Below, piece after piece: positions 473 to 64,000 of a DNA stretch of 64,000 nt. The notes beneath the pieces were generated by a model. It did not search any database. It was not told the DNA's origin and saw only the letters and a program-made list of their open reading frames with translations. Source of the DNA: Cytauxzoon felis (taxonomy: Eukaryota; Apicomplexa; Aconoidasida; Piroplasmida; Theileriidae); assembly GCA_020283715.1 (NCBI GenBank), contig JAIQCW010000079.1, positions 61,563 through 125,562 of the forward strand. The letters run 5' to 3'. A program made the translations under genes and the position numbers. Positions within the stretch are counted from its first letter, which is position 1. The number at the start of each line of letters is the position of its first letter.

Positions 473-2062
473 CTAAGAAATTAATTGTTGTAAAAGTTCC
501 AACTTACCAGCATATATACGACATATCTTAGATGTTACCTTAACCTAGAAAATTATATAATCATCATCCCATTAAACTCACCACCTCCCATACACTTGAA
601 GTCGCCTTGAATAATTTACTAAATACAGGATATGGTATACGACATGTATACTATAAATATTATAATATATCATCCACTAGATGTCCAATCCAACTCTTTT
701 CATCCTGCCGTCAGCTCTCCACCTGAGGTTACAACCACTGTTCCACTCGCCGTGGAGGCCTCTTCTAATTACTTCCCCCTTCGCTTCCCTGAGATCAGCT
801 GCGGGTTCCACTCGAGGTCCAGTACTATTCTTCATTCCATCTACACCTTCATCATCGCCACGATCTCTGGGAGTGGCTTTACTCTTTAGAGATAGGTAAT
901 TGGAAGGGCTGTCTGCAAGACTAACCTCAGGTGGAACGCCTAGTGGAAGAAGAGTAAGATTGGATCTCGAGTGGAAGAGAAGGTGGTGAGGACGTAACCT
1001 CAGGTGGAAAAGAGTATGAGAATTGATGGGTTATATTCTTGTGATCAACATACTGGAAAATTTTTGAGGAAGCACAGATGTACGGGTCCTACGAATATAC
1101 ATCCGCATAGTACAGCGAACATGTTCCCTAATACATGTACCATAGTAGCAAATATATCATATCCAAATTGAACACCACCTCTTATGTAAGTACATAAATT
1201 AATAAGCATCTCTAAACGATCACAACTTGCTTGTGTATTACAAGGTGTATCAGTAGTCAAATCCAATTGATCAAAAATAGTTTTAATCTCAGTAAAACGT
1301 TGCATGTTTGGCTTTATATATTCATTATTAACCTCTTCAAACTATAATGGGAACAATAAAGACCGACCTCAGTATATCAACACACCTTTTGAAACTGATC
1401 CTTTACCAACAAAATCAAAATTCTAGCCATTTTTAATTCATTTGATGATATCTAAATGAAAAATGAAGTATAAACGCTCATAGAGCACGAAAATTTTTGT
1501 TAATCATACCGTATTATCAGTCAATTTCTTGTAATCTTCCATGTAATCTTCATTGAAATTTTCATTCAGGTGATCATTCATAGATGTATCTATTAAATCC
1601 TCCTCTATATAATCACCATCCTTATATCTGAGGTGTATGTGTGATTTGAATAGGGAATAAACTCACTTCTCTTTAAACTCCTTAATCATATTCCTGAAAA
1701 TTATGAATGTTTTGGATGAATTTTTTAAAGTACCTAAAATATGTAACTTCACGATCTATAGATATGATATAAACCTATGATTATGCATCAACATACCTCC
1801 ATATTTACTCTTCAGTATAAACTCAACACGTCTAATGTCTAAAGGAGAAAATGTTAATTAAAATTGAAATGTGTAGATTATAATTACATTCAGGATCTAA
1901 AATAGACTCTGGGTGATATGTTAGCCCATTATAATCTTTCTTGTATGTATTATACAACTCATTAAATAACTTGTCCGAGAGCAGACTTGTAACATTCTCA
2001 CAGGATGTATATGCGATATAATTAATAAATATTACAATAGACAATAATATTAAATTAAACAT
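473..2062 (-). CDS. Predicted secreted protein of unknown function, nine exons
   Basis: I do not recognise the family. The model starts at 2062 with a hydrophobic signal peptide (MFNLILLSIVIFINYIAYTS). Exons in order are 2062-1888, 1838-1797, 1755-1734, 1693-1667, 1627-1510, 1451-1386, 1341-1054, 605-582 and 544-473, with GT-AG boundaries and no frame break, giving about 277 residues. The middle is acidic. The part near residue 190 has spaced cysteines (PCNTQASCDRLEML, then LINLCTYIRGG), followed by a hydrophobic stretch (MFAVLCGCIFVGPVHL). All introns are 34-59 nt except the seventh (606-1053), which carries a PMR repeat. Likely role: a secreted or surface parasite protein (inference from the signal peptide only). 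Confidence 0.7.
674..1010 (-). repeat. PMR modular repeat in intron 7 of the secreted-protein gene
   Basis: The repeat has T ends at both sides, two X variants, the C module, P, and S with its 3' GATCGTGGC. Its S module is in the same orientation as the host gene. It is flanked by ordinary AT-rich intron sequence, so it lies inside the intron and does not define its ends. Confidence 0.9.
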
Positions 2063-2194
2063 TACTTAATTAATTCATATATATATTCAATAAAATATAC
2101 GGAAATCCAAAAGATGGTGTGTAGAATAGGGGTAGGTAAAACGACATCAGCAAAAGGTAATGACGTAAACCAAATAATAACACATATGTAAATA

Positions 2195-2620
2195 TTAAAA
2201 TATTAACTCTAATTGTTTTTTTTCAGCAGCTAATGATAGCAACGCTAGATCATTCTGTACCTTCCAGTTCTTATAGTCCCTAGGTCTTGAAGGGTTATAA
2301 AATGCCCTGGAATCCGAGCTGGATGAAGTCTTGTAAAATTGTTCCGTGGTAAACATTTCCTTATCCGTCTGTATAATGAAATTAAATGGGTTAAAACAAT
2401 TGATGAGTTAAATTTGCAATAGAAACATGACAAATACACAATAAAAACTAACCTGCCTAATGTACTGATATAAAAATAGCGGCGGAAAAAAGACCCACGA
2501 TTTACGGCAAAGGATACCTAATTTAATGGCGCGTTCCTTGGTAATCTCACTGGCTGTTTTATATCTCAATAGACGAATGGGCATAGTTGCGATATTTTTT
2601 AACGCACTGAAGAAGCTCAT
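2195..2620 (-). CDS. Small conserved-looking protein, unknown function
   Basis: Two exons (2620-2453 and 2368-2195) joined across an 84-nt GT-AG intron give 113 residues. The N-terminal half is basic with one hydrophobic patch (WVFFPPLFLYQYI). The C-terminal half is polar (YNPSRPRDYKNWKVQNDLAL) and ends in a short helix-like tail. There is no signal peptide. I cannot name a family. It could be a mitochondrial or small membrane-associated protein, but nothing seen here decides this. It is transcribed away from the gene at 2931, with a 310-nt divergent region between them. Confidence 0.55.
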
Positions 2621-4207: not shown

Positions 4208-5959
4208 TGTCATTAATACAATTATACATTATATAAACATAATACCATCTACTATATACAATAAATTACATACAAGAGAAATTTTTTATATTATATTTCC
4301 ATTTATATATAATATAAAGTCTTATATATTTTAGTTTATTAAATTAGTTTACATTTAAATATTAGATATATATACAACTAGAAGACATAATACAGTGTAG
4401 GGTTTATTATATTTATAGAATTCAATAGAGATTTCATGCGTGCTGAATGGTGGTATATAATTAGTCATTGTATAGATAATTAGTATTACAAGTAAAAATA
4501 TTATTAATTATATAATTATTTAACATATATATACAATAAATAGCTTATATAATTATAATGTATTGTATATCTTGTTCTAGAATAGTTAGAATTCCTAATT
4601 GTATTATAAATTATGTAAATATAAATAATTAATTTTATGGGTATAAATATGGATGAAATTTTATTAAAATTTATATTTGGATATTTTATAGCATATTGAT
4701 ATCTATAATAACATTTCAAATATCATATGTCTAATTATTGTTTGTTATATTGTAGATTCCTATATTATAGGTATATAAACCCCCATATATTATCTAGTAG
4801 TTTTCAGTATAATTTTTTTTTAATTATATAATCCATACATGTTTATATAATATGTATAAATTTAGTGTAGGTCTTTGATTGCATAGGAAGATTGTCTTTT
4901 AAAGACATGCAATATAATTTACCAAAATTCTACCCACATTATGGGTAATTAGTTTAAATTAATTTCAATAATTATATTGCGTAAAAAAATTTTTTAAAAT
5001 GACTTAATTTACATATTTTAATGAGAATATATAGACGATTGTCTAATTTATATTAACATTATAACTTTTACTTCATTTAATTTACAAACTTGTAATTTAT
5101 TATAATTCATGACGATAATTTGTAGAATATTGATAAATTGTATTGAATTAATTACAAATACAAATTATTAGATGGGATAAAGTATAGAATATTATAAAAT
5201 TTCTAATAATGTAGTATATAATTTAAAGATGTTGTAATGGTGGATATAAATGATAGTATTCTGAAATTAATATTTGAACATGTACACATTTTAGAATATT
5301 TATGTAATAGTGATGATTATAATAATGGAAATATAAATATTATTATAGACATGTTATATAGATTGGAGTTTGATTTAAATTTTGAATTGTTTTCATTAAA
5401 TTGGGTAGTATGGGATAATTGATAAAATAATGGAATTTATACCTATACTTTAAAATTATAATAGAAATGACTTTGATAATATATATAAAGGACGAATTTA
5501 TAAATGATAATGATTGAAATGTTGAATTTAACACGACTTTAAATATAATTATAATCCTCTAAACATGATAATAAATGATTTAAAAAAATTGTTTATATTT
5601 CATGTAATGATATAAAAGTAGGATACGAGATGTAAAGGTATATAAAATAATTATTAACATATAGAAATTGTAAAGTTTTAAAATATTAAAAGTTTCAAAG
5701 TGATGATGTTAAAATCTTGAATGATATTATAAAGATTTATAAATTTTCATTTATTGAAATTTTAATAATAAAACAAATTATTAATTGAATTTCTTTAACA
5801 ATTTAAATTGAAGATGTAAATATAAATTAATATCCCATGTAATGAATTATAGAAGGAAGAGGAAGGTGGAAGGGGGAGGGGAGGGAAGAGAAGGGGGTGT
5901 AATAAAAAAATAATATGATACACCTTCCAATAATTCTAATATCCAATAACTTCTATAAA
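4208..5959. other. AT-rich intergenic region between convergent genes
   Basis: About 1.75 kb of mostly A+T with short homopolymers. A 61-codon frame at 5237-5422 has no recognisable features and the same composition as its surroundings, so I do not call it a gene. The only distinct object is the polypurine G-run tract near the right end, listed separately. Confidence 0.5.
5872..5897 (+). other. G-quadruplex-forming motif in a polypurine tract
   Basis: Within a nearly pure purine stretch (about 5851-5897) there are four G runs of 5, 4, 3 and 5 separated by loops of 1, 1 and 7 nt. This fits the classical intramolecular G-quadruplex pattern. It stands out in an otherwise roughly 80% AT region. 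It lies 63-88 nt beyond the stop codon of the CCCH gene, on the opposite strand to that gene. Confidence 0.6.
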
Positions 5960-7394: not shown

Positions 7395-9863
7395 TTATAA
7401 TGATATCATCGATTTTTTATTTATCCTCTCTAATATATAATTTATATCATATCTTCTCTCATACATATTCATTATTATCAACCATTTTAAATCATACCAT
7501 AACTTGTCCATTGATACCTTACCCATACCATTATAACTACTAGATGAAATAGAATTGGTCTTATGATAATCATCATTATCTAATGATGAATTCGATATAT
7601 AATAATTATCTTTAGAATTTTCCAATACATTTTTACTACCAATATTGATGTCAGATGATCGAATTGATGATGGAATACCTATACCCAATGTTGTAGTAGA
7701 TGATAGATTTGTAGTATCAATGTCAGTATATACATGAAATATATCTTTTCTATTATATGGAACTTCTACATTTGATGTTGTCTTGCAGACAGCTCTTCCA
7801 CCTGAGGTCGTCTTGCAGACAGCTTCTCTATTTACTTCCCCCTTCGCTTCCCTGAGATCAGCTACGGGTACCACCTGAGGTCCAGTAGTATTATTCATTC
7901 CACTCGCCGTTCCACCCGAGGTTAGAATCCTGCCGTCAGCTCTTCCATTTATTTCCCCTTCCAGCTCCCGTAGATCGCTTCCAGGTAGTCCACTTGAGGT
8001 TACATCCAACAGATCCTTAGCACCATCTTCCATCATTCCCATGATGGATGATCCATCACTAACTTCATCACCACCACGATCTCTGGGAGTGGCTTTACTC
8101 TTTAGAGATAGGTAAATGGAAGAAGGCTCCACGGCGAGTGGAACAGAGGTTGTAACCTCAGGTGGAGAGCTCTCTGCAAGAGAAGGAGAGTTGATGGTAG
8201 GACGAAATGAGGTGGATTGGACTTTGTGTGGATTGTGTATGAGTAGATGTTGATACATTGTTATGAATTGTTTTTTGATGTTATGATTGGGTTCCCATTG
8301 TGAGAATTTATAGAGTGCTTCTTCAGTTAATTCAATAAGTTCATCATTTGTAGCATTATTTAAATCATTAATAGTAAATTTTCTTTTAGTTAAATATTTC
8401 ATTAAAATAATTATCCTTTTCATTATATTTGTATTACAAGAAATTTTATATAAACCTTTACCTATTAATTCTTCAGAATTAAATTTATTTTTATAACCCT
8501 CTATTCTCATTACTTCTAATAATAAATTTCTATTCTTAATCAATGATTTATCATATGGTACTTTATTTAAATATCTCAATATACTTTTCAATTGATCATT
8601 ATCCATAACCTTAACATCACTCTCCCATAATATCATGTCATCCAATAATTTTATACACCATTCATCATTACCATCATTAACCTTAATATCACGAATAACA
8701 CTCGACGTTCCACCCGAGGTTACAATCCTGCCGTCAGCTTCTCCATTTACTTCCCCTTCCAGCTCCCGTAGATCGCTTCCAGGTATTCCACTTCCACTTG
8801 AGGTTACATCCAATACATCCTTAGCACCATCTTCCATCATTCCCATGATGGATGATCCATCAGTACCTTCACCACTACCCTCACCACGATCTCCGGGAGT
8901 GGTTCTACTCTTTAGAGATAGGTAATTGGAAGAGCTGACGGCAGGACTAACCTCAGGTGGAGAATTATGGGGATTATCATGGGGCAATTCTACATTATGG
9001 TGTTTATTATCCAGCTCATGGGGTTGTTTATCATTATAGTGTTTTTTATCCCTACATTCCCCACAAACCTCACATCCGCCACGATCTCTGGGAGTGGTTT
9101 TACTCTTTAGAGATAGGTAATTGGAAGAAGCCTCCACGGCGAGTGGAACAGGGGTTGTAACCTCAGGTGGAGGGGCTCCACGCCGAGTGGGAAAAGAGTT
9201 GGATAGCTCATGATCAATTCCATTGAAATCCATGAGATGATCAATGGGGTTTAATTTATAAGTATCATAGGTATTTTCATCATCATTAACGATAATATCT
9301 CTATCGAAGTCATGGAATTTTACATTATTTTCATCGTCATTGAAAAATTTTGTCCTTAATTCATCAAATGTTAAATTATTTTCAGGTTCAGCTTCTTTAA
9401 ATGTCAATGTTTTATTATCATCAACTTCATCTTTAATAGGATCCATTCTTATACCCGTCCTATAATTACCAGCCATATCAACCTTACCCATAACAATATT
9501 ATCAACATCAACCGATTTCATACCTATACAATTATCCCTCATACCCCAAGAAGAATCATCATTATTTACAGATAATGGATCCACACCCGATGTCATGACC
9601 TTATCTTCCTCTTGTAGAGAGCTTTCCACCTGAGGTACAGTACTACTCTTCATTCCATCACTAACTTCACCTTCCTTTCCACTCGCCGTGGTGGCTTTCT
9701 TATTTACTTCCCCTTCCAGCTCCCGTAGATCGCTTCCAGGTATTCCACTTCCACTTGAGGTTACATCCAATACATCCTTAGCACCATCTCCACCTTCATC
9801 ATTGCCACGATCTCCGGGAGTGGCATTACCCTTCAGGGATAGGTAATTAGAAGAAGGCTCCAC
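7395..9863 (-). CDS. Repeat-rich protein of unknown function with translated PMR copies
   Basis: A continuous 822-codon frame. The frame stays open upstream of 9863 through another repeat to about 9970 without an ATG, so the 5' end is unresolved. It may start at an internal ATG, or it may be a spliced continuation of the RRM gene at 9961-11658. Non-repeat segments are acidic and Asn/Asp-rich (near residues 95-230), a helical domain at about 395-540 (WCIKLLDDMILWESDVK, then LTKRKFTINDLNNATNDELI), and a C-terminal helical segment ending in YDINYILERINKK. Between them lie PMR-encoded stretches such as [15 protein letters not shown] and [18 protein letters not shown] do not recognise the unique domains. 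All repeat copies are translated in one frame. Confidence 0.6.
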   Translation of the reverse strand: MEPSSNYLSLKGNATPGDRGNDEGGDGAKDVLDVTSSGSGIPGSDLRELEGEVNKKATTASGKEGEVSDGMKSSTVPQVESSLQEEDKVMTSGVDPLSVNNDDSSWGMRDNCIGMKSVDVDNIVMGKVDMAGNYRTGIRMDPIKDEVDDNKTLTFKEAEPENNLTFDELRTKFFNDDENNVKFHDFDRDIIVNDDENTYDTYKLNPIDHLMDFNGIDHELSNSFPTRRGAPPPEVTTPVPLAVEASSNYLSLKSKTTPRDRGGCEVCGECRDKKHYNDKQPHELDNKHHNVELPHDNPHNSPPEVSPAVSSSNYLSLKSRTTPGDRGEGSGEGTDGSSIMGMMEDGAKDVLDVTSSGSGIPGSDLRELEGEVNGEADGRIVTSGGTSSVIRDIKVNDGNDEWCIKLLDDMILWESDVKVMDNDQLKSILRYLNKVPYDKSLIKNRNLLLEVMRIEGYKNKFNSEELIGKGLYKISCNTNIMKRIIILMKYLTKRKFTINDLNNATNDELIELTEEALYKFSQWEPNHNIKKQFITMYQHLLIHNPHKVQSTSFRPTINSPSLAESSPPEVTTSVPLAVEPSSIYLSLKSKATPRDRGGDEVSDGSSIMGMMEDGAKDLLDVTSSGLPGSDLRELEGEINGRADGRILTSGGTASGMNNTTGPQVVPVADLREAKGEVNREAVCKTTSGGRAVCKTTSNVEVPYNRKDIFHVYTDIDTTNLSSTTTLGIGIPSSIRSSDINIGSKNVLENSKDNYYISNSSLDNDDYHKTNSISSSSYNGMGKVSMDKLWYDLKWLIIMNMYERRYDINYILERINKKSMISL
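7780..8223 (-). repeat. PMR repeat, translated copy in the 7395-9863 frame
   Basis: Carries two X modules, P (both variants), D and S, with T ends. Read on the minus strand it encodes PPEVTTSVPLAVEPSS and the D peptide. No stop codon in the host frame. Confidence 0.9.
8702..8962 (-). repeat. PMR repeat, translated copy in the 7395-9863 frame
   Basis: T end, X, P (CGCTTCCAGGT variant), D, S, X and inverted T. Sense with the host frame. Just beyond it (about 8965-9060) is an extra module encoding DKKHYN, also found near 58140 and 60220. Confidence 0.9.
9076..9206 (-). repeat. PMR repeat, short translated copy
   Basis: A shorter copy with S, C and T modules only, in sense with the 7395-9863 frame. 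Confidence 0.85.
9493..9636 (-). repeat. 144-nt coding segment duplicated at 23188-23331
   Basis: Encodes part of the 7395-9863 protein (SLQEEDKVMTSGVDPLSVN and onward). An almost identical copy, with about three mismatches in 144 nt, sits at 23188-23331 next to another PMR. In both places the segment ends at a T module (CCACCTGAGGT). Confidence 0.9.
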
Positions 9864-9949
9864 GCCGAGTGGAACAGAGGTTGTAACCTCAGGTGGAGAG
9901 CTAACGGCAGGATGGACCTCAGGTGGAGATTTGAATTGGACTTTGTGTG
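9625..9949 (-). repeat. PMR repeat at the 5' end of the 7395-9863 frame
   Basis: T, C, P (CGCTTCCAGGT variant), part of D, S, C, X and several T modules. It spans the unclear boundary between this frame and the upstream RRM gene. Confidence 0.85.
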
Positions 9950-9960
9950 GAGTGTTTGAA

Positions 9961-11658
9961 TTATAAGAATGTGATGGATAATTTTTTTATTGTTGGGTAT
10001 ATATTTTTATATGCATAATAATTCAATTTAGTTTTAAATATAATATTTTCTGGATCATAATTACCACCAATATGATCTATTAAACGCTTCTCCCACCAAT
10101 ATACCTTCTCATCCGTAACAGTAGAATCCATCGTCAAATATACCAATTTCCTCCTCGGAACATTCAACTCCACCTCATCATTATCATTAACAATTCCATC
10201 TGAGGTCTCCCACTCGCCGTGGTGGCCTTCTTCACTTGAGGTTACATTCCTGCCGTCAGATTCTCCACTTGAGGTCTTTCCACTAGGCGTGGAGCCTCTT
10301 CTATTTACTTCCCCCTCCAGCTCCCGTAGATCGCATCCAGGTATTCCACATCCACTAGAGGTTACATCCAATACATCCTTAGCACCATCTTCCATCATTC
10401 CCATGATGGATGATCCATCAGTACCTTCACCACTACCCTCACCACGATCTCCGGGAGTGGTTCTACTCTTTAGAGACAGATAATTGGAAGAGGCCTCCAC
10501 GGCGAGTGGAACAGGGGTTGTAACCTCAAGTGGAGAGCTGTCTGCAAGACGACCTACGGTGGGGGTAACCTCGAGTGTAGTATCTTCATTAAATTTATGA
10601 TTGGAAAGGTTATTGATAAGATTAGGATGTAGATGTTCTTGCCAGATATCATTTTCGTATGGGAATGTTGCGGTAGTGCATCTGATTTTTTCGATATAAA
10701 GATTGATTTTGAGTCCTTTATAGAGTACAAGTTCTTTATTTTTGAGCCAATTAGAATCTTGTCCTGTAAACCCGATATTTTTTGCGATACGATTTCTTTT
10801 TAATACACATATAACTTTTTCTTTAATATTATTAATGATTTGATAAATATTACATTCAACAATAATACCATTACGATAAATATCAGTAATGATACCAAAA
10901 ACTTTATCACCACATTTTAAATTATTAATATTAATATATTTAATATTAAAATTATTATATTTAACAACAAGATTAGAAGGATTAATATAATTTCTTAATG
11001 CTGGTTGTTTTTTATAACCATCATTATAATATTCTTCATATGCACATTCATTTAATTTATATATTTGTATATATCTCATACCTAATATATTATTATTCAT
11101 TTCATTTATAATTTTATCTCTAGTTGATATATCAATACATCTTATATATGCATCACCTGTAAAATTACCATTAGAATCTTTTATTAATATAACCATTGTA
11201 ATTTGATAATCATTTAACCAATTATATATATCTTCTTCTTTTATTTCATATGGTAAACCTTTTAAATATAATAATGCATTATATGATATATTATCTTTAT
11301 CTTTAGGTTTAGGTAATCTTTTTCTTATAGGTATCTTATTTACTTTGGTTATAAATTCTGTTAACTCTTCATTTAATACTTGTTCTCTACTACGTTTACA
11401 TGTAGCTAAATTTATAAATTCATATATCTTATCATTTACATTATTTTTATATCTTCTATACATACGATTCCTTTTAATCTTTATATCATTACCCAAGGAT
11501 GGGTCAAATTTAAATCTTTTAGCATTTAAACCTATATCTAATCTATTATATATACCATTATCAAATCTTAATGTATAATATTTATAACCAACAATTATAT
11601 AATCATTATATAAACTTAATAATATTATTATTATATAATATATAAAAATTCTCATCAA
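9961..11658 (-). CDS. RRM and S1-like RNA-binding protein with signal/transit leader
   Basis: A single-frame 565-residue protein. The N-terminus is a strong signal peptide (MMRIFIYYIIIILLSLYND) followed by a Lys/Arg/Asn-rich stretch, the pattern of a bipartite apicoplast-targeting leader. Residues about 125-200 form an RRM: RNP2 is LYLKGLP and RNP1 is GDAYIRCI. Residues about 240-300 look like an S1-type beta-barrel (CGDKVFGIITDIYRNGIIVE). A PMR is translated in frame at about residues 360-490. The protein then returns to unique sequence (KVYWWEKRLIDHIGG) before the stop. An apicoplast RNA-binding role is inferred from the leader and domains. Whether the PMR is translated or spliced out cannot be seen. 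Confidence 0.7.
   Translation of the reverse strand: MMRIFIYYIIIILLSLYNDYIIVGYKYYTLRFDNGIYNRLDIGLNAKRFKFDPSLGNDIKIKRNRMYRRYKNNVNDKIYEFINLATCKRSREQVLNEELTEFITKVNKIPIRKRLPKPKDKDNISYNALLYLKGLPYEIKEEDIYNWLNDYQITMVILIKDSNGNFTGDAYIRCIDISTRDKIINEMNNNILGMRYIQIYKLNECAYEEYYNDGYKKQPALRNYINPSNLVVKYNNFNIKYININNLKCGDKVFGIITDIYRNGIIVECNIYQIINNIKEKVICVLKRNRIAKNIGFTGQDSNWLKNKELVLYKGLKINLYIEKIRCTTATFPYENDIWQEHLHPNLINNLSNHKFNEDTTLEVTPTVGRLADSSPLEVTTPVPLAVEASSNYLSLKSRTTPGDRGEGSGEGTDGSSIMGMMEDGAKDVLDVTSSGCGIPGCDLRELEGEVNRRGSTPSGKTSSGESDGRNVTSSEEGHHGEWETSDGIVNDNDEVELNVPRRKLVYLTMDSTVTDEKVYWWEKRLIDHIGGNYDPENIIFKTKLNYYAYKNIYPTIKKLSITFL
10196..10580 (-). repeat. PMR repeat, translated copy in the RRM/S1 gene
   Basis: T, C, T, X, C, P (CGCATCCAGGT variant), D, S, C, T and X modules. 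It encodes [15 protein letters not shown] and [17 protein letters not shown] in the host frame. Confidence 0.9.
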
Positions 11659-11835
11659 GATCCATGGTATATATATACATTTATATATAATAGATTATAG
11701 ACATTATAGTGGTGGAACAATGTAATTGATATAATGAATTCTATAATGATACATAAATATATTCTATAATATATAATATCATTTTAAAAATAAATTAATT
11801 TAATTAGTGTATATTAATCTTATAATTTAATAACT

Positions 11836-29319: not shown

Positions 29320-29431
29320 TCGCCTCCACCTGATGTTACAACCACTGATCCCACTAGGCGTGGTGCCTCCTCTGTTTACCTCCCCCTCAAGTTCCCGTAG
29401 ATCACTTTCGGGTTCCACCTGAGGTCCAATC
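29320..29431. repeat. Short PMR fragment downstream of the FAINT gene
   Basis: T, C, P (GATCACTTTCGGG variant) and T modules only. Confidence 0.8.
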
Positions 29432-52883: not shown

Positions 52884-55800
52884 ATGGATTTAAGTGTTGA
52901 TAATGTTAAGAAGGTCTTTATAAATGATGAAAAAGAATATGGGATTATAGCTAGGGTTGATTTAGGAACCAAAGGTGACATCCTCTATGAATCACCTCTG
53001 TATTCATTTCTACATTCATTTACTAGGTATAATTCTATTATTCAACTCAAAATTTTATCTACTATCGTTTAGGAAGTGTATATTAACATGTTTTACTTGT
53101 TATAGAGGAATTGGTTCATTGACGGATAATTTAGAGCATATTTTAAAGTTGTTAGTTGATATTCCACCTTCAATTTTTATCACTGTCTCTATAGAAGTGG
53201 GAAGAAGTTGAATAAAAATCTAAAGGATGAGCTCGATTTTTACACCTCCGAACTCCCAGTATGTCTAAAAGTGTATTCAAACTATCCTCTAAACCTCAGA
53301 GCCATACTCTTAATTCATATGTTAAGTGTAGCAAATGTAGTTTACTATTTTGTAGTAGAAAGTGTCTAGAGGTATGAAGTTCCATCTGTCCTCGTGCATG
53401 ATTCAGGAACTGAATGGCGTACATGAGATCATCTACCATGATATGAATGAAGAAGAGGTCACCAAATGGAAGAAATTTGAGAGGTAACGACTAAGGTGAT
53501 GAGAAATCTCAATTGATATTCAGGTACTGCGTATTGTATCATGAGAATTTCTACTTTGCTGGTAAAGACTTTATATTAGAGACATCTATAGACTTAGGTG
53601 TTATTTATGTGGAAATTATATACAAGGGAACAATTGAAGAGGCTGTAAGATCATTGAATGAATTTTATAGTAAAAGTTGGTATGTTGAATATTTATAAAT
53701 TTTCATTATGAAATTATAGGGATAAAATACCCCACAATTGTAGGGTTAATATGGAACGTTTACAGAGGTAATATTAAATAAATTTCAATCTTCAATTTAT
53801 AGGGCTAAAGAATCTATAGAATTATTGAAAGACCCTTTAATATTATATTGTAATAGAATGAATATTGATCTTGAAATAATAAATCAACTCTTCTCATTAG
53901 ATTTTTACTTAAAGCTATTGGTATTTTCCATTACCATTCTATAATTCCATTACATAATAGGGTACAATGGATCTCGTCTGTGTAGATATTGAGATACCAA
54001 ACCCACATAATAATACAATCCTACAACTTTCCCATGATATAAATTCAAAAGAACTCTACCATAATTTGAAAAATGTATGTTGAAACTAAGGAATATAACT
54101 ACTAGAGTGAACATAATGAGTAAGGTGTTGTCCACTACACCTGAGGTTACCTCTACCAAAAGTCCAATCCAACTCTCTACATCCTGCCGTCAGCTCTCCA
54201 GCTGAGGTTACATTCCTGCTCTCCTTTCCACTCGCCGTGGAGCCTCCTCCAATTACCTATCTCTAAAGAGTAGAGCCACTCCCAGAGATCGTGGCGAAGG
54301 TAGTGATGGATCATCCATCATGGGAATGATGGAAGATGGTGCTAAGGATGTGTAGTGATTGGACCTCAAGTGGAACCTGGAAGCGATCTACGGGAGCTGG
54401 AAGGGGAAGTAAATGGAAGAGCTGACGGCAGGATTAAACCTCAAGTGGAGAAGAGCTTACGGATAATCTAATCACAATATGATGGATACATTAATTAATA
54501 CTTTAAATAACTGGGGAGGATGATATTTGGAATAGAAAAATAATGGATATAAAAATTTTGTAAGATGGGTGAACATCAAGAACCTCTAATAGTTTGCGTG
54601 AAGATAGACGACAATAATCGTAAATATTATAAGAGAGGGAATACATGGACCGTGGATGGCACCATAACTAATGATCCAGATAATACTCAAGTTAAATCCC
54701 AACTTCAAACTTCACTTGAGGGTCTAAAGTTCTATACGAAGTTAAGCTTGATAAGAATGGTCCATACAAAGCGCGCCCTCAGGCTAGTCCTGGTGATACA
54801 ATTTCTGTTACAGCAGTAACTCAAACCGGTGGCAATGATTTTAAAGGTTTTAGACATCATAAACAAGATGGAAGCACAATTTCTATAAATCGTATGACTA
54901 TACACGGTCAAATTATAAAAGAACTTACAATTGAGCTTGCTAATTTTACAACAACTGCGGCTACTGGAGGTGTTTTTGTATATTTTACTGAGAGCGAAGC
55001 TAATGGAGATCGTCAGAAACCGCTATTGATATGCCTATCCAAGGATGGAACACAGAGTAATCAAGATTCTGCTGGTAACAATGCATGGTATAAGCGGGAG
55101 TATGATCAGAACACTCATCAAAATAGTTGGACGAATGTTACTGCTGATTATAATACTATAAAACCGGTTGAAAACAATACCCAAATTGATGCTTCTCTCG
55201 TACCAAAACTCCAAACAATTAGAACTGCACTTCAAAATGCTAGTGATGAAGGTTATAAAAAACCAGATTACATTTTGAAATTGGATTATAGACCTGCAGG
55301 TTCTGATAATATTAAATATGTAACGGGCAATGACAATTCTCCTGCTAATAGAGTAATTACTGTTGAGAAGAAGGAGGGTTCTAGCGATAATGTCCCTACA
55401 GGATATGTGGCATATGAACATAAATGTAGTGGTAGCCTTACTGATGTCAAATTTAGACATTCTGGAAATGATATAGAATTGAGGAGAGAGATTGGTGATA
55501 CTAATCCTATAACTATTGCTACTGGAGCTAAAGTCTGGGTATTCTATAAGGATGACGATCCAGGGACACCTCTACTCTTGTATTATCAACAAAGTGGCAC
55601 TACAAACAATTGGTATGGTAAAGGAATGAAGTGGGAAGAGCATACAGATCTGGGTCATATAGATGCATCAACAGAATTACCAAACAAAACTCAACATCAA
55701 ACTGAACATGATGCAATTGCTTCTAAGCTTAAGGCTATGGCTACATATGGTTCTTTTTTTGGATTAAAATTTAGTAAATATGGAACCCTACATTGGTGCC

Positions 55801-57208
55801 CCATATTAATGTTGTCTTTTTCTCTCTGAACCATCTACGCCTTTTATCCTGCTATATCACCATATCAATTAGTTGATGATCCCTATGATGGTAAAAAGAT
55901 TGAACTATGGATCCAGGCTATCTCTGCTACACCCCACATTGCATTCGCCATAACCCAACTTTGTGAAAAAGGCCCTGGCAGGACTTGGAGGAAGAAAGCA
56001 GAGGGTGATACTGGTGATAGTGCTGAATGGTATAAACTCTATCATTTGACATGGTTATTTTTTATTCCCTATATAATATGTATATACATCTTCTTCTCCA
56101 TGATGCATTTTCCCAATGGACGCATTGGTAAATATTTCAGGGCAAGCGTATTTAGAACTGGAGCTCTATGTGTAGTATTCGCTTGGGTACAGGAATTTAT
56201 GGAAGCTGCTGGATTCGGTGGTGGTATGGGTACGCAAGTGAGCGGGAAAAGTGGTGATACTTTTAATGATGACGCTGCATAAATCAATGGATTCATATTC
56301 AAATTCACCATGGGTGAATCCATGTTTAAAGATATGACTCTTATATAATTACACATAAAATCCACCCTAATCCTTACAAAGTCACCTTGTATCAACTCGA
56401 GGTCCATTCCTTGTCTTGCAGACAGCTTCTCCATTTACTTCCCCTTCCAGCTCCCTTGGATCGCTTCCAGGTTCCACTTGAGGTCCAATCCTTATCTCCA
56501 CCTTCCTTTCCACTCGCCGTGGCGGCCTTCTTATTTACCTCCCCTCCGCTTCCCTGAGATCAGCTTCGGGTAGTCCACTTGAGGTTACATCCAACACATC
56601 TTTAGAACCATCTTCCATCATTCCCATGATGGATGATCCATCACAACCTTCACCACGATCTCTGGGAGTGGCTATGCTCTTTGGAGATAGGTAAATAGAG
56701 AAGCTGTCTGCAAGACGAAGGATGGGTGGATTGGATCTCAGGTTGAAGATATACCTATGGATGTACAACTTTTGGTAGACAATACATCACTCATCGTTCT
56801 ATTCATTATAAGCTTATTAAATAATTCTGTTATCTATAGACGTTATTGGAGGTGTATTTTATAATGAATGGTCAAGAGTGCAGTTTGGATGATCTGGAGA
56901 GACTTATAGAAGGGTAAGTTGTATTGAAGTTGATGTATAAACTTTAGTTGTGACTTATTACCAGATATTATTGGCCTTGGTATTTTCGATATACTATCAA
57001 AACTCAATCATTCATGTATGCCTAATATAGAAATTGATTATGGATCAGACAAAATCGCAAATGTAAGTGGAATTATTAATGAAAAAAAATTTAATTCCAG
57101 ATTAATCTTTTAAAAGATATAATTAAAGGTAATGAATTATTAATTTCATATATAAACGAACATGAAAGTTACGAGTACCGTACAAGATTACTCTTGAGTG
57201 TTAGTTGA
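52884..57208 (+). CDS. SET/MYND-domain protein (SMYD-like), with a 2.8-kb intron
   Basis: The gene starts 102 nt from the divergent Trm5 start. Exon 1 (52884-53026) has the split-SET N-terminus YGIIARVDLGTKGDILYE. Cys pairs follow (CILTCFTC, then CSKCSLLFCSRK at 53323-53371), a MYND-type zinc site. Later exons include a helical region, then 53961-54074, 56840-56913, 56948-57062 and 57101-57208. The last two have the SET core NHSCMPN and KGNELLISYI, with YEYRTRLLL. SMYD proteins are lysine methyltransferases. The stretch 53100-53330 allows several splice arrangements and is unresolved. The intron 54075-56839 holds two PMRs around a broken surface/Tpr-like gene. Confidence 0.72.
54132..54452 (+). 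repeat. PMR repeat, left part of the large SET/MYND intron
   Basis: T, X, T, C, S, D, T, inverted P (CGATCTACGGGAGCTGG), X and T modules, host sense. Its middle is almost the same as the copy at 61470-61640 (both end D early at GGATGTGTAGTGATTGGACC). Confidence 0.9.
54565..56282 (+). pseudogene. Broken secreted-domain / Tpr-like fusion nested in the SET/MYND intron
   Basis: The N-terminal part (54565-55740) encodes repeats of a lineage-specific extracellular type: PLIVCVKIDDNNRKYYKRG near the start, PLLICLSKDG with NAWYKREYDQNTHQNSW in the middle, and PLLLYYQQSGTTNNWYGKG near the end. Frame changes occur near 54720, and a stop lies at 55827-55829. The C-terminal part (55830-56282, a different reading context) has the Tpr-like landmarks TIYAFYPAISPYQL, KGPGRTW, HFPNG and AGFGGG. 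It is on the host strand. A disabled member of a surface family is the simplest reading; short introns could explain some breaks. Confidence 0.7.
56395..56746 (-). repeat. PMR repeat, right part of the large SET/MYND intron
   Basis: T, X, P (CGCTTCCAGGT), T, C, P, T, D, S, X and T modules. S and D are antisense to the host and inverted relative to the PMR at 54132, so the nested fragment lies between opposite-facing copies. Confidence 0.9.
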
Positions 57209-57385
57209 TGTATAGATGATATAAATATAAAATAGAATTATGGATTCATTTGTAAATGTCAAAAATGTTTAAATGAATTTCATAAAGAATAAAAATTTTT
57301 TTTAAATATATTTAAATTTTATATAATTTTATGTTGATTGTATGTAGTGATTAAAGTGTGTAGAGTTGTTATCTTGAAATTTAAA

Positions 57386-60300
57386 ATGATTGATATAATT
57401 AAATTTAATGATAAATTAACTATTGATGAATTTATAGAATTATTAGTTACACAAAAAATATTTAATTTAAATGAAAATAATGTTTTTATACAATTAGCAT
57501 CTTCTATTAAACGTACATTTTGTAATAAAGATAAAAATAGTGCTATCAATATCTTTATTAGAGCTACATTAGCTGATAGTACTTATAAAAATAATATTTG
57601 TAACTTTATTAAATCAAAATCTGATAATAAACGTAATAATACATCGCATAAACCAAATATACTACAATGGATCAAAAAAATCAAATCCAATAATCAACAT
57701 CGCAATGATACACAAATAAACAATAACACCAACCCCAAACTAGAAGTACAATCTAACTCTCTTGGTCCTGCAGACAGCTCTCCACCCGAGGTCCAATCCA
57801 ACTCTTCTTCCACTCGGCGTGGAGCCTCTTCCAATTACCTCCCCGTAAACGGTAATGCCACTCCCGGAGATCGTGGCGAAATATCCGAGACGATCAATGG
57901 GAGTCGAGGTGAAGTAAATAGAGAAGCTGTCTGCAAGACAACCTCAGGTGGAACGGCGAGTGGAAAGGAAGGTGGAGGTAGTGATGTAACCTCAAGTGGA
58001 CTACCCGCAGCTGATCTCAGGGAAGCGAAGGGGGAGGTAATTGGAGGAGCTGTCTGCAAGACCAACGGTGGAGGCGAGTGGCAAGACGAACGTGAAGGTG
58101 AAGATAGTAATATAACCTCTGGTGTTGTGGGGGTTTCTGGGGATAAAAAACACTATAATATTAATCACCCCCATAATTTAGATAATAAACCCCATAATTC
58201 TCCACCTGAGGTTAGTTCTGCCGTCAGCTCTTCTCCACCTGAGGTCCAATCCTACTCATCTTCCACTTGGGGTGGAGCCTCTTTTAATTACCTCCCCGTG
58301 AACGGTATTACCACTCCCGGAGATCGTGGTGAAGGTAGTGATGAAGGTTGTGATGGATCATCCATCATGGGAATGATGGAAGATGGTTCTAAGGATGTGT
58401 TGAAGTGTAGTGATGGATCATCCATCATGGGAATGATGGAAGATGGTTCTAAGGATGTGTTGAAGTGTAGTGATGGATCATCCATCATGGGAATGATGGA
58501 AGATGGTGCTAAGGATGTGTTGGATGTAACCTCAGGTGGAATGAAGAGTAGTACTGGACCTCAAGTGGAACCTGGAAGCGATCTACGGGAGCTGGAAGGG
58601 GAGGTAAATAGAGAGGCTGTCTGCAAGACGAAGGAAAGGATTTCAGTTGAAACATCTAATGTTAAAAAGGTCATTAGTTATAATGCATCAAATAAATTGT
58701 CTGGTTATAGGTATATACGTCGTAGTCGTAGGATACATCGTAATAGTATAGATGAAATGGATGGATATGATATGGGTAGTAATATATTGATAATATATGG
58801 TGAGATGAATGGTATGATAGTAAGTTATTATTTATTATCAAAGATATATAAGATGGATATAAAATTATTATTAATAAATGATGATGTGGAGATAAATTAT
58901 TTAAAAATAAATAATAATAAATTACAATATATATGTTGTAAAGAATTAATAATGATGGATATAATAGATTTATATTTATTAAAAAATATATTAATGAATA
59001 AAAATAGTAATATATGTATAATAGATAATATACAATTATTAAATATAAATTATCAATTAATATTATATAAATTATTTAATAAAATTAATAATAAATTATT
59101 TATATTATTATGTAATAATATAAATTTATTAAATATTAATATAAAATCTAATTCTATATTATTTAAAATACCCCATTTTTATATTAATAATTTATTAATA
59201 TTTTTTTATTAATAATTTTTTAAATATTAAATTATCTAAACTTAATATTATTAATATATTTAATTATACTAATAATAATATTATATTATTATATAATACT
59301 ATCTCTTATGCTATTAATAATTATAATAATCCATTAGGTTATCTTAAATTTATTAATATACATTATAAATCTATTAGAAATCTTATCTTACTTATATTAC
59401 AACCTAATATCAATCATAATCATATTAAAAAAATCATACTCGAACTTATCACATACTATAATCATAATCTCAATCAATTATTACTCGATCTATATAATAA
59501 ATTAATCAATATCATTAACATTCCCAATCATCTTATACCCAATATACACCATGTATTCGCTAATGTAAGTTGAATTTTATTCACTACACTCGAGGTCTAA
59601 TCCTACTCTTTTCGTCCTGCCGTTCCAACTGAGGATACAACTACTGTTCCACCTTCCATTCCACTCATCTCCACCTGAGGTTGGTCTTGCAGACAGCTCT
59701 TTTATTTATCTCCCCTCGGATTCCCGTAGATCATCCTCGGTATGTCTACCCCTAAGAACAGGAATTCTACCCGGAGGAACAAAAAAGTTTAACCCGGAAG
59801 AACGTGATGAAGGTTGTGATGGATCATCCATCATGGGAATGATGGAAGATGGCGCTAAGGATGTGTTGAAGTGTAGTGATGGATCATCCATCATGGGAAT
59901 GATGGAAGATGGTGCTAAGGATGTGTTGAAGTGTAGTGATGGATCATCCATCATGGGAATGATGGAAGATGGTGCTAAGGATGTGTTGGATGTAACCTCA
60001 AGTGGAAAACCCGTAGCTGATCTCAGGGAAGCGGAGGGATAGGTAAATGGAAAAGCTGTCTGCAAGACAAAGAGAGGTGGGGATAAGAATTGGACATAAG
60101 TGGACCAATAGCTGATTTCGGTGAAGTAATTAAAAGAGCCGCCATGGCAGTTAGAAATGAACGTGGTTGTGAGGATATTTATAAAGAAATCGATTGGACC
60201 TCAAGTGGAAAATGTGGGGTAGTGGGGATTTCTGGGGATAAAAAACACCATAATTCTCCACCTGAGGTTACGTTCACTGAGGTACAATCACTACCTTAAC

Positions 60301-60794
60301 CTTTCTACCTCCTTTTCCACTCCATCCTCTCTTCGTCTTGCAGACATCTCTCCACTTGAGGTTACAATCACTGTTCCACTAGGCGTGGTGCCTTCTCTAT
60401 TTACCTCCCCCTTCGCTTCCCTGAGATCAGCTCGGGTATTCCACCTGAGGTTACAACACTACCATCTCACTGCCTTCGCCACGATCTCCGGGAGTGGCTT
60501 TACCGTTTACGGGGAGGTAATTAGAAGAGCTGACGGTAGGACTGACCTCAGGTGGAGAGGCCACCACGGCGAGTGGAAGAGAGGATGGAATGAATCAGTG
60601 ATTGGACCTTCGGTGGTTGTAACCTCAAGTGGAACGTATATTATATATGAAAATATATAATTTTATAGGCGTATATTAGACCACCATTAATGATGGATGA
60701 TGAGGATGGTGAGGTAGTGGATGCATCATTTATATGTATAGAGAATTTGGTATTAGATTTAATAAAATTAATTCAGAGTGATGGATTGGTTTAA
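57386..60794 (+). CDS. Unknown protein with many translated PMR modules
   Basis: The start chosen is the ATG at 57386. The first exon runs open to 59212. A long Asn/Ile/Leu-rich frame in another phase continues to 59564, with the switch at a run of seven T (about 59199-59206). That is either a frameshift, a sequencing error or an unseen tiny intron. The last exon is 60669-60794 (YIRPPLMMDDEDGE). Residues about 120-420 are PMR-encoded. The downstream domain (SNILIIYGEMNGMIVSYYLL, then NICIIDNIQLL) has a weak P-loop-ATPase-like pattern as in ORC5, but the nucleotide motif is absent and I make no firm call. The last 27 nt overlap MAK16. Confidence 0.5.
57745..58640 (+). repeat. Large translated PMR array
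   Basis: About 0.9 kb with two S modules in the LPVNG form, several T, X, C and P, the DKKHYN module and three tandem D units (60-bp period, about 58352-58531). It is in frame and stop-free throughout. Confidence 0.92.
59584..60636. repeat. Large PMR array in the last intron of the 57386 gene
   Basis: Contains T, X, P-like, E motifs (about 59745-59806), three tandem D units (60-bp period, about 59818-59997), inverted P, X, the DKKHHN module, T, C, P, an antisense S in the LPVNG form, X, C and T. It probably arose with, or from, the array in the preceding exon. Confidence 0.9.
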
Positions 60795-62014
60795 TTCTTT
60801 TTCTAATGATTCATCTTCATATTCTATTAATTGACCTGAAGATTTTAAAAAAAAATTTGTATTGTGGGGAATAAAATTTGATATTTAATTTACCTTTACG
60901 TTTGATCTTCTTCTTTTCAACATCAATTTGTTTTTCTTCTTCAAAATTATACAACTCACCATAAATCCCCTGAAATATTTAAAAAAAAATATTATAAACT
61001 CACTTGACTTAATCTATTAAGTAATTCATCTTCTATACTTTTATCTAATTTAGCTGCAATTTCAGCTTTCTTTTCTCTTATTGCTTCACGACGTTCTGTT
61101 TTCTTCTTAATTGGCATTAATTTTGTCTTTGAATTTAATACTAAACTTCTCATACGAGCTAATACTTGTTGTAAACGACGATAACGATGTTTACATTTTA
61201 ATGTTAAATGATGAGCATATCCAACTTTAGTCTCTTGTGTTATCTGCTCCATCGCCTCCTTACGTGATTTAGATAATTTTATACGCTCCCATTGACGCCT
61301 TGGAGTATGACTACGCTCAACCGTCTTTAAACATAAAACCAATGAACCTAATAATATTTAAAAAATAATCGAATTTAATAATAATCAATAAATAGTTCCA
61401 TCCGAGGTCCACCTTTCTTTCCCACTTGCCTCCACCTGAGGTCTAATCCAACTCTATTCCACTCGGCGTGGAGCCTCCTCCAATTACCTATCTCTAAAGA
61501 GTAGAGCCACTCCCAGAGATCGTGGCGAAGGTAGTGATGGATCATCCATCATGGGAATGATGGAAGATGGTGCTAAGGATGTGTAGTGATTGGACCTCAA
61601 GTGGAACCTGGAAGCGATCTACGGGAGCTGGAAGGGGAAGTAAATAGAGAGGCCGCCACGGCGAGTGGAACACTGTTAGACCTCAGGTGGAATGACGAGT
61701 GGAAGAGTTGAAGGTAGTGATAGGACATCGTGTAGAGTATGTTATTGAAGAGTATATGGATGATATGGTCATGATAATAGTGGTATCATTGCATCCTTCA
61801 ACAAACCTTGTTCTTCAATAACGGTAGCGTAATTACTATTGGCCAATGGACAGCTGGCATTATTACAGAGTCCAGTTACATTATAGATATTAGTACAAAA
61901 TGATTTCGTATCAGTACTATAAATGATAATGATGAATATATAAAATTCAACTCACGTCTTTCTGAAGGAACAGAATCCATTCTTCAACAAATGCCAAACT
62001 ACATCATCACTCAT
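60768..62014 (-). CDS. MAK16: MAK16, 60S ribosome biogenesis factor
   Basis: Five exons (62014-61956, 61916-61807, 61347-61004, 60969-60894, 60835-60768) give 218 residues. Family blocks are [38 protein letters not shown] (the Cys-rich Fe-S/zinc-type site), [46 protein letters not shown] and DELLNRLSQ then [11 protein letters not shown]16 acts with RPF1 in 27S pre-rRNA processing. The acidic tail is short. Intron 2 (61348-61806) holds a PMR; the others are 34-58 nt. The stop lies within the coding end of the convergent gene. Confidence 0.95.
61396..61737 (+). repeat. PMR repeat in MAK16 intron 2
   Basis: T, C, T, C, S, D (truncated), T, inverted P, C, T and T-like modules. S is antisense to MAK16. 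Very similar to the copy at 54132-54452. Confidence 0.9.
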
Positions 62015-62409
62015 GATCAATTAAATATATTACATTTATATTCATTTAAAAATCAGTTCGTGAATTACTGATTAATTTTATACGTATTTTCATGCGATAT
62101 AATAAATTAATACATTGGCATCACAGCAAGCATCGTGGAAGGTATCCATCAATAACTACATCACTACTTCAACTTTTAAATTTAAATTTAATATAATCGC
62201 AATATTATAGTTAATTAATTCATTTGTTTTTTAATTTAAAATCGTCAATTTTCGTCGTCTAGTATAAAATATGGAAATGTGTCAGTAATGTAGTCGTTTT
62301 TGTATAAAAAATTTTTGATCATTTATGCAGTAGTTTAATTTAAAATTATTAAATGAAGTTTTTTGATTCTGTTTTTATTTAATCGCTATATTGTTTATAT
62401 GTCTGAATA
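62015..62409. promoter_or_regulatory. Divergent intergenic region between MAK16 and ATAD3
   Basis: 395 nt between two divergent starts, AT-rich with T-rich stretches near 62300-62400. Presumed bidirectional promoter; nothing else seen. Confidence 0.45.
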
Positions 62410-64000
62410 ATGTCATATTATAACTTTGGTTTCGGCTCTAGTGCTCCTAGTACCATGCCTAGTACACCAATTAAAGATGACAAGAATATCACTGGGAAAT
62501 GTATGTTTTACTATAGACTATCCTTCTATGTCTCATCATTTTCTTCTATAGTTGATCCTACTGCATTGGAGCGTGGAGCCAAGGCTTTAAAGATGTTAGA
62601 TTCATCTCCAAATGCTCAAAAGGCGTTCGAATTGACGAAGCTACAGGAATTAACTCGTCAACAAGAGATTCAAAAAGAAATTCAACAGGTGAGTTTATGA
62701 TCTTTACTTCATCACTAAATTTCCAGATGCATCTTAGACAAACGGAATTGGGTACACAAAAGGCTAGGATTGAAGGTGATGAGAAACGTAAATTAGCCGC
62801 TCAACAACAAGAACAAGAAAGAATAACAGCACAATATAAAGCTAAACTTGAATCGTATGTTGACTGAGAATAATTTGTTCTAAACTTCTTTCTTCTTAGA
62901 GAAGCTTATCAGAAGAAGCTTATGGATCAAAGAAGGCAGAATGAAGAATGGTTACATCAACAACATCAACAATTCCTACGTCAAGAAGAGATCCGTAAGA
63001 AGACAGGTATGATGAATGAATATTATGTGTACAATTATTTTTTTATAGAAATGGAAATCTTGAACATGAGAAAGGAACAAATTCGTGAAGAAAAGGCATT
63101 GGAACGTGAGACTATGAGAGTACGCGTACAAGAAGAATCCAAAGCAAAGATTAAGCAAGAGCGCGAAAATTTCGACGTTCATGTCAAGTGAGTGGAGAAT
63201 AAACAGCCAAGTCATCCTCATCCAGAATGATGAAAGAAAGATCAATAGAGGAAAGACAAACAAAATTAGAATCATTAAATATCATCTTCTCATCACTTGG
63301 AGCAGGATTCAGTTCATTGTTAGCCGATAAACAAAGATTAACAGCTGGAGTTTGTTGAATAATTGAATTCATTATTACAACAATAGGTCACATCATTGTC
63401 ACTACTCGCTCTCGGAATATACGGAGCTAAAACCGCAACCAGATTAACCGGAAAAATTATCGTAAGTCACATTATATATATTATAATCCACTCGATGTGC
63501 AGTCCAACTCTTTTCATTCTGCCGTCAGCTCTTCTATTTACCTATCTCTAAAGAGTAAAGCCACTCCCAGAGATCGTGGCGATGTTCAACCCCTAAGAAC
63601 AGGAAAAATCTACCCGGAAGAACGAAGAATATCAACCCGGAGGAACGGAGTCTGTTAACCCGGAAGAATAGGAAGTTAGTGATATTGGACCTCGAGTGGA
63701 ACCCGTAGCTGATCTCAGGGAAGCGGAGGGGGAAGTAATTGGAAGAGCTGACGGCAGGATGGACCTCAGGTGGAGAGCTGTCTGCAAGACGAAGAGAAGA
63801 TGGAGTGGAGAAGAGTTGGATTGGACCTCAAGTGAATTGTTTGGATAATATATTTATATATTATAGGAGCAGAGAATAGGTAAACCACCATTGGTTCGTG
63901 AGACATCTCGATTGGTATTGACGGTATGTATGGATTTTGAGATGAAATTTTTAAATATATTTAGAATGGATTTACTAATTTTATAAAGAATTTAATGAAT
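62410..64000 (+). CDS. ATAD3: ATAD3-like mitochondrial AAA ATPase, N-terminal part
   Basis: Eight exons are in the window (62410-62500, 62552-62688, 62727-62854, 62900-63006, 63049-63187, 63226-63349, 63387-63461, 63867-63923); the AAA domain lies beyond the right edge. Landmarks are FDPTALERGAKALKMLDSS, a long coiled coil rich in Gln/Glu/Lys/Arg (LTRQQEIQKEIQQ, MEILNMRKEQIREEKALE), KIKQEREN, the membrane-anchor region LLALGIYGAKTATRLTGKI, and GKPPLVRETSR. ATAD3 spans the inner mitochondrial membrane and organises nucleoids and cristae. The intron 63462-63866 carries a PMR; the others are 37-51 nt. A next exon start near 63990 is possible. Confidence 0.92.
63487..63837 (+). repeat. PMR repeat in the ATAD3 intron
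   Basis: T, X, S, four E motifs in tandem (about 63585-63670), T, inverted P, X, T, X and T. S is in host sense. Confidence 0.9.

Follow-up and report, generated by a model that had tools for sequence, protein, structure and literature searches.

The window, a stretch of 64 kb of the genome of Cytauxzoon felis (C45:61563-125562), encodes an RRM protein, a SWI3-like protein and further long open reading frames (ORFs), and is interspersed with a GC-rich palindromic repeat whose copies lie between as well as inside these frames. An earlier note on this DNA had described the repeat as about 35 modular sites on both strands, far more GC-rich than their surroundings. This description holds. Repeated 14-mers in the window form 47 clusters, which become 35 sites once gaps of up to 260 nucleotides (nt) are closed, and the GC fraction is 0.52 in repeat-masked sequence (12-mers seen at least eight times, low-GC words excluded) and 0.295 in the remainder. 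The modular build was likewise borne out. That note had overlooked that the repeat is built with two ends, a common core loop and a conserved open frame, and that several of its copies lie inside protein-coding ORFs.

The family is multi-copy throughout the genome analysed (8.62 Mb in 181 contigs) and not single-copy outside the window. The core loop TCCCNNAGATC occurs 7,145 times (3,580 on the + and 3,565 on the - strand), against 14 (6 and 8) for the control, which here and below is the same motif read backwards, and GTCAGCTCT is found in 680 + 682 copies (control 4 + 2). Most counts given below come from a 264-kb sample consisting of the window, C9:1-140000 and C4:60001-120000. This sample holds 301 copies of the loop, and a profile search of it identified 136 Q and 190 P cores, as defined below; the reversed control gave none in either case. 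The repeat-masked share of the sample is 13.2% (window 14.8%, C9 14.3%, C4 8.8%), with a GC fraction of 0.52-0.53 compared with 0.29-0.30 in the remainder, and nearly all masked repeats that were inspected belong to the palindromic family. There are 166 elements in the 264 kb, roughly one per 1.6 kb. Regular spacing of the elements was considered and dropped, because the coefficient of variation of 0.79 for the gaps is biased by the merging, by construction, of gaps up to 300 nt. The published genome of C. felis is given as 9.1 Mb with 31.8% GC (PMC3748084).

Every core type is built round one shared 11-nt loop. The loop is enclosed by CCAC and GTGG in Q, by GCT and AGC in P1, by AGC and GCT in P2 and by GGAT and ATCC in S, while rare cores have AGT/ACT, AAC/GTT or GAC/GTC stems. 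With few mismatches allowed, the window has 14 Q cores (around CCACTCCCAGAGATCGTGG) on the + and 15 on the - strand, 14 and 16 P1 cores and seven P2 cores on each, confirming that the repeat occupies both strands; the three reversed patterns matched neither strand of the window (0 in all six cases). Adjacent cores no more than 300 nt apart are arranged +- in 119 cases, ++ in nine, -- in seven and -+ in none. The 119 head-to-head pairs comprise 105 Q-P, 11 S-P and three with an unclassified core, and not one Q-Q or P-P pair, and the 16 same-direction pairs include six P1-P1 and two Q-Q; 45 of the 301 cores stand alone, with no other core inside 300 nt. In most elements two unlike ends, Q or S on one side and P on the other, face each other across a middle cassette, and the arms are made up of exchangeable dyads. 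At 48631-48781 (no strand assigned) the window holds P1 and Q halves placed back to back, the opposite of the usual order, a pair left out of the -+ count because its Q loop is imperfect, with a mismatch.

Outside the TATTTAC or TAATTAC boundary an X or C module adjoins the core in 268 of the 274 cores with a recognised boundary (the 27 of 301 without one were dropped), followed by alternating T and further modules. The X module exists as CCTGCCGTCAGC, GTC[C/T]TGCAGAC, CTC[C/T]TGCAGAG and CCATTGCATGG, and the C module as GCC-GTGGN-GGC or GGC-GTGGN-GCC, so that the discrete alternative module versions claimed earlier are real. Middle cassettes consist either of GATGGATCATCCATC units, some of them in tandem, or of ACCCGGARGAAC-type units. 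In a third variant, the long form, they are replaced by an AT-rich, conserved interior some 240 nt long that is bounded by P on each side. This interior gave nine matches in the 264-kb sample, query included, and at least 40 genome-wide, the number scored out of 401 first-look candidates; the mean column identity of eight aligned copies is 78%.

The elements of the window are given here with the strand of their open frame. P1-Q dimers lie at 683-1010 (-; loops at 791 on the + and 867 on the - strand), 12192-12500 (-; short open frame), 15666-15833 (-; stops between the halves), 38850-39122 (-), 49503-49662 (-) and 60192-60635 (-). Q-P1 dimers are found at 14610-14806 (+; halves in different frames) and 40598-40873 (+; one change in the Q loop), and Q-P2 dimers at 38326-38568 (+) and 50600-50797 (+). 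Middle cassettes are present in the Q-P1 elements at 18610-18934 (+; GATGGATCATCCATC), 42715-43042 (+), 51260-51553 (+) and 63519-63834 (+), the last two of the ACCCGGARGAAC type, in the Q-P2 elements at 54162-54451 (+) and 61430-61693 (+), and in the P1-Q element at 35084-35370 (-). A P2-variant accompanies P1-Q at 30695-30968 (-) and, with a middle cassette, at 56411-56720 (-). S cores occur in P1-S at 13796-14062 (-), S-P2 at 17191-17491 (+) and S-P1 at 23318-23592 (+) and 59668-60070 (+), the latter with tandem 60-nt middle cassettes (at 59737-60007) and a stop in its P1 half.

No strand was assigned to the remaining elements outside ORFs. The long form has a P1 core at either end of its interior at 36386-36829 (interior of about 240 nt) and 44800-45286, whereas at 25691-26055 a P1 end and the interior (25804-26043) are followed by an unrecognisable second P end. 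At 29338-29920 two P ends stand 422 nt apart, one with the AGT/ACT stem. The long form at 36386-36829 comes directly after an exon matched to GDI, and a GDI-like remainder, read by eye, follows downstream; it therefore probably lies within an intron of the GDI gene. Unrelated to the repeat, a 47-nt purine stretch with one interruption is located in very AT-rich DNA at 5851-5897.

Other elements of the window are continuous with a host frame. The 863-amino-acid (aa) ORF 7398-9986 (-) has three in frame, at 7778-8171 (-; P1,P2-Q), 8725-9172 (-; P2-Q plus a second Q half) and 9623-9929 (-; P2-Q), the 577-aa RRM_1 protein encoded by ORF 9964-11694 has one (P2-Q, 10210-10555, -) and so does the 248-aa ORF 18955-19701 (-) (P1-Q, 19316-19505, -). 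The SWI3-like ORF 40972-42681 contains a Q-P2 element at 41626-41876 (+) and a middle cassette with a P1 end at 42082-42284 (+), and the 624-aa ORF 57338-59209 contains Q-P1 at 57788-58062 (+) and Q-P2 with tandem 60-nt middle cassettes (58271-58541) at 58198-58633 (+), all of them in frame.

The element itself has a stop-free frame on one strand, in the Q-first direction, giving a Q-side peptide, the middle and one of two alternative P-side peptides. Among the 46 non-overlapping ORFs of at least 300 aa in the sample, 19 hold a core, and 53 of the 56 cores in them are sense and in frame. One of the three antisense cores is in the GDI ORF, which probably runs on into the intron, and the other two, a Q and a P, are opposite a 305-aa ORF that may not be a gene; 17 of the 46 ORFs therefore carry sense in-frame cores. 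Within Q-P dimers the two halves share a frame in 19 of 20 cases where the ORF reaches 300 aa, in 3 of 3 where it is of intermediate length and in 34 of 84 where the frame is shorter than 150 aa. Elements are rarer in ORFs of at least 150 aa than expected (39 of 166, against 76), and 107 of the 136 Q copies lie in frames of less than 150 aa.

The carriers in the window comprise the SWI3-like protein, the RRM protein and two ORFs without a Pfam match. In an alignment of the SWI3-like carrier with four Theileria orthologues (T. equi, T. orientalis, T. annulata and T. parva; a fifth, P0007, was left out), inspected by eye, the orthologues have no insert, and its place is a poorly conserved linker. 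Outside the window there are 14 core-bearing ORFs. Ten of these were compared with Pfam, and seven gave matches: LCCL, FAINT, HIR1-type propeller, kinesin, CAF1, GCP N-terminal and MFS; the 305-aa antisense ORF was among the three left unmatched. The CAF1 carrier has 177 residues where human-type PARN has 20, with the second half of that alignment being weak (i-E 1.2). FAINT-domain proteins are typical of the Theileria group, in keeping with C. felis as the source of the genome; the one carrying an in-frame element is encoded at L011:1640-3271 (-), and an ORF with FAINT (DUF529) domains is located in the window at 27399-29189.

Nonsynonymous and synonymous changes were counted relative to the consensus of the copies, not between orthologues, and their ratio is 0.86 for Q in long ORFs (25 of 25 copies used), 1.21 for Q in short frames (105 of 106), 1.12 for P in long ORFs (20 of 30) and 1.00 for P in short frames (111 of 149); copies below 75% identity were dropped, as were one Q and three P copies with a weak motif. 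For long ORFs these ratios are near 1 and give no sign of purifying selection on the amino acids of the insert, so that tolerance of the peptide is more likely than selection for it. Furthermore, the C-module versions differ by one base in length, which alters the peptide upstream.

Two copies of the element lie in the surface antigen cf76. The locus L029:1501-3669 is 100% identical to the deposited cf76 across all 723 residues, which identifies the genome as that of C. felis. It has been reported that cf76 was amplified from cDNA and that its C-terminal region is strongly seroreactive (PMC3748084). One of the two copies lies inside that region.

Exchange between copies, rather than simple decay, had been proposed to explain the alternative versions, and it is supported by independent arms, unlinked sites and a shared tract. 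The module versions of the left and right arms are identical in 19 of 95 dimers, with 18.1 expected, and the arms are therefore not matched to each other; a pairing of left with right arm was rejected. Among 117 Q copies, 31 of 55 site pairs are unlinked at p 0.01, and in 36 of 55 each of the four haplotypes is present in three or more copies, with site +4 being independent of all ten other sites (p >=0.23). For 111 P1 copies, 9 of 10 site pairs are unlinked at p 0.01 and 9 of 10 have all four haplotypes. The adjacent Q sites -18 and -17 show three of the four haplotypes and so are not locked, which alone is no proof of exchange. An exact 264-nt tract, running from a C module to the P boundary, is common to two elements that lie 1.7 kb from each other in one 1,307-aa ORF and differ in their outer arms. 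Between two cf76 isolate sequences, the N-terminal element has 66 identical, 16 different and 29 gapped columns, and residues 282-575 have 290, 4 and 0.

The stems vary in pairs. Of the 301 cores, 295, 291 and 289 have complementary bases at stem pairs 1, 2 and 3, respectively (shuffled means 150.6, 119.8 and 116.8), and all three inner pairs are intact in 279, with seven different stems: CAC/GTG (117), GCT/AGC (111), AGC/GCT (30), GAT/ATC (15), AAC/GTT (3), AGT/ACT (2) and GAC/GTC (1). The varying pair of the C dyad is complementary in 117 of 127 copies (63.6 when shuffled), and its changes are two-sided in 49 copies and one-sided in nine. X dyads with a TGC loop (n = 243) include GTCT/AGAC (62), CTCT/AGAG (16) and CCAT/ATGG (14), with CCTGCCGTCAG forming a separate class, and the second dyad of Q (n = 136) occurs as CTCT/AGAG (84), CCGT/ACGG (22) and CCCT/AGGG (16). 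Among the 55 pairs of variable Q sites, only the predicted stem partners -18/-11 (80 + 35) and -17/-12 (94 + 21) are never discordant. The coupling of stem partners thus stands out against a partly recombining background, with few independent stem switches.

The loop, by comparison, is nearly fixed. From 210 anchors chosen by arm module and boundary alone, a perfect loop is found within 45 nt in 194 and a loop with one mismatch in the other 16, and at a control position 200 nt further on there is a perfect loop in 3 of 210. Sites 15-27 nt past the loop have a mean majority of 39-66%, a figure that comes from unaligned copies and hence partly reflects indels.

We consider, with moderate confidence, that the family is a selfish, non-autonomous palindromic-mosaic DNA element of the C. 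felis nuclear genome, spread and homogenised by copying and short-tract exchange. Copies would spread and stay alike via DNA-level copying between elements, in short ectopic conversion tracts that probably begin at folded or broken single strands at the palindromes. The complementary arms would matter at the copying step, and, as the paired arms suggest, copying may pass through a folded single strand. The open frame would let copies persist in exons, so that many host proteins would come to hold the same low-complexity insert in loops and linkers. More tentatively, the family may be a living, protein-tolerant mobile element of a kind new to eukaryotic nuclei, whose two unlike palindromic ends, with their fixed 11-nt loop, are copied via a folded single-stranded intermediate by a putative enzyme while its pieces are reshuffled; we regard this stronger proposal as rather doubtful.

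Several observations weigh against the reading as a selfish element. Predicted folding of single-stranded DNA for eight window elements gave z from +0.37 to -3.58, seven of them at or above -1.25, little better than shuffles (four non-element control stretches: -0.84 to +0.81). Strongly stable hairpins are unsupported by these energies, and we therefore speak of dyads and covarying arms, any fold being our inference. There is no excess of G-T over A-C on the sense strand (9 against 11 of 903 cells) and therefore no sign of an RNA fold; a function as single-stranded RNA was rejected, as Rfam also gave no match in the window at the gathering score. The stem changes represent perhaps a dozen ancestral switches and not hundreds of events. 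Linkage also extends beyond stem partners. It is seen at p<0.01 in 24 of the 55 Q pairs, of which 23 fall in the region from site -21 to site -6, and at p 0.01 in one of ten P1 pairs (-14/-10). The C-terminal element of cf76 is invariant between the two isolate sequences (0/85), and residues 116-176, just upstream of the N-terminal element, are variable too (10 different, 2 gapped). The low divergence of the cores could also reflect selection on a host function. Finally, the analysis yielded no enzyme, insertion event or intermediate and no pair of isolates with empty and filled site, and movement of the element is putative.

The claim that there is no transposase agrees with the profile searches of the genome, which covered three transposase/integrase families. 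Y1_Tnp (PF01797) had no match, and the same profile does match 5 of 14 control genomes; DDE_3 (PF13358) and rve (PF00665), searched exon by exon without introns, had none either. The only RVT_1 match in the genome is telomerase (a Telomerase_RBD plus RVT_1 protein, L037), and no reverse transcriptase of the long interspersed nuclear element (LINE) type, as expected for a short interspersed nuclear element or another LINE-mobilised repeat, is among the RVT_1 matches. Mobilisation by a known enzyme is thus unsupported as far as these families go. An origin outside the lineage found no support either: the exact Q pattern had no match in viral contigs and one exact 23-nt P-core pattern none in a collection of genomes from bacteria and archaea, nothing among 806 protein candidates matched the insert part of the 863-aa ORF at E 0.001, and a protein search with cf76 returned only two cf76 clusters among 7,998 candidates scored, the present genome being the only piroplasm DNA covered. 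No catalogued family was found for the repeat, Rfam being a partial test of this. It is undescribed in the accessible literature on Cytauxzoon repeats and antigens, including the available parts of PMC3748084, PMC6310948 and PMC9141347 (subscription papers and preprints elsewhere being beyond this scope), which accords with the remark that no described piroplasm element has such a build.

Among the alternatives, a passive palindrome family survives best, and we consider it possible, if not probable. Here there would be no mobilising step, old duplicates would be homogenised through ectopic gene conversion, and covariation of the arms would arise from template switching or mismatch repair in micro-palindromes, correcting one arm to the other with no need for a fold. 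Reassortment of sites separated by a few to 30 nt, the conversion-like 264-nt tract, the weak folding energies and the three unmatched transposase/integrase families all fit such a family, but the origin of thousands of dispersed sites is left unexplained, as is the pairing of Q or S with P in 116 of the 119 head-to-head pairs. The near-fixed 11-nt loop is unexplained as well, since template switching would not protect it.

We think it unlikely that the element is a host cis-element, such as a chromatin boundary or a replication or transcription signal, spread by selection with the core as its binding site. The putative site would consist of two half sites round TCCCNNAGATC, and the state of the loop, perfect or one change off in all 210 of 210 anchored cores, would suit it, as would the density of roughly one element per 1.6 kb. 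The half sites, however, differ completely in sequence between core types, and ORFs of at least 150 aa hold 39 of the 166 elements, several of these in frame in unrelated proteins. Outside ORFs, elements lie between tandem, convergent and divergent neighbours in 72, 31 and 20 cases, compared with 46, 22 and 16 expected, with no strong preference.

Eukaryotic miniature inverted-repeat transposable elements (MITEs) are short non-autonomous repeats with inverted ends and many copies, and in this they resemble the C. felis family. It is nevertheless quite improbable that the elements are dead, decaying MITEs of a lost DNA transposon. They are short, have inverted ends and no enzyme-coding capacity that we could see, and the genome has no match to DDE_3, rve or the Y1 transposase, but the cores do not decay, the versions reassort, and cf76 isolates differ in module content. 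Unlike MITEs, the family has no recognised fixed-sequence terminal repeat or target-site duplication, its outer ends being variable arrays, and no transposase match in its genome (DDE_3 and rve being the only DDE-type families tried). That the element is a protein domain selected for its peptide, for example a decoy epitope common to many proteins, is hardly credible: two copies do lie in cf76 with its strongly seroreactive C-terminal region (PMC3748084), and the frame is kept in long ORFs, but the codon statistics there (0.86 and 1.12), on which peptide-level selection was rejected, the short frames of 107 of 136 Q copies and the peptide changes caused by the C-module versions all speak against it.

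Rickettsia palindromic elements (RPEs) were reportedly described by Ogata in 2000 and 2002. The C. felis element may work in a similar way, without our claiming that it belongs to them (PMC10969869). RPEs are short palindromic repeats with an open frame that are found in frame in unrelated genes and also extragenically (PMC10969869, PMC6649704). In-frame insertion into protein genes is seen here too (53 of the 56 cores carried by ORFs of at least 300 aa), and conservation of the palindrome as DNA is matched by the covarying dyads, with a stable fold being unsupported. The differences are that, according to the accessible descriptions, RPEs number in the tens, whereas the C. felis family is nuclear, eukaryotic and present in thousands of copies, and that in the latter the two ends are unlike, one loop is common to the cores, the cassettes of the middle and the arms are exchangeable, and the stems covary. 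RPEs were compared by description, the 23-nt P-core search of bacteria and archaea being the only sequence check.

Repetitive extragenic palindromes (REPs) and the bacterial interspersed mosaic elements (BIMEs) they form are likewise small palindromes in dimers and clusters, having sub-families with alternative complementary stems and, in several families, heterodimers (PMC3733652). It has been suggested that unlike partners in REP dimers may escape the clearance of inverted repeats, which the heterodimer rule in C. felis recalls (PMC3733652). REPs are, however, bacterial and mostly extragenic, carry a GTAG or CGTC tag and commonly have G-T pairs, and the GTAG families are tied to RAYT tyrosine transposases (PMC3733652), whereas the C. 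felis family has many in-frame intragenic copies, no G-T excess and no Y1_Tnp match in its genome. The GC clusters of yeast mitochondrial DNA, such as GC42, are also palindromes rich in GC that multiply, merge and are shuffled within an AT-rich genome, but they are mitochondrial, 42 nt long in the case of GC42, and mostly intergenic, and the loops of GC42 vary more than its stems, while in C. felis the loop is near fixed and the stems vary in pairs (PMC4478555). The coding palindromes of nematomorph mitochondria resemble our family in being inverted repeats within coding sequence; they differ in that they are perfect repeats in mitochondrial genes, with both arms coding and no dispersed nuclear family (PMC6649704).

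According to a survey covering 64 apicomplexan genomes, C. felis has no transposable elements and Apicomplexa are without class II elements (PMC9141347), yet about one eighth of the sampled sequence is repeat-masked. As far as the accessible literature shows, these would be the first RPE-like in-frame palindromes in a eukaryotic nuclear genome. They make it testable how a genome tolerates one insert shared by many of its proteins, and how complementarity is maintained between paired sites whose neighbours are reshuffled. cf76 is a studied vaccine candidate, and as an element copy lies in its seroreactive region, antibodies regarded as cf76-specific may recognise an insert common to many proteins. 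If the family is a living mobile element, the proteome of the parasite, surface antigens included, would be continually fitted with versions of one insert.

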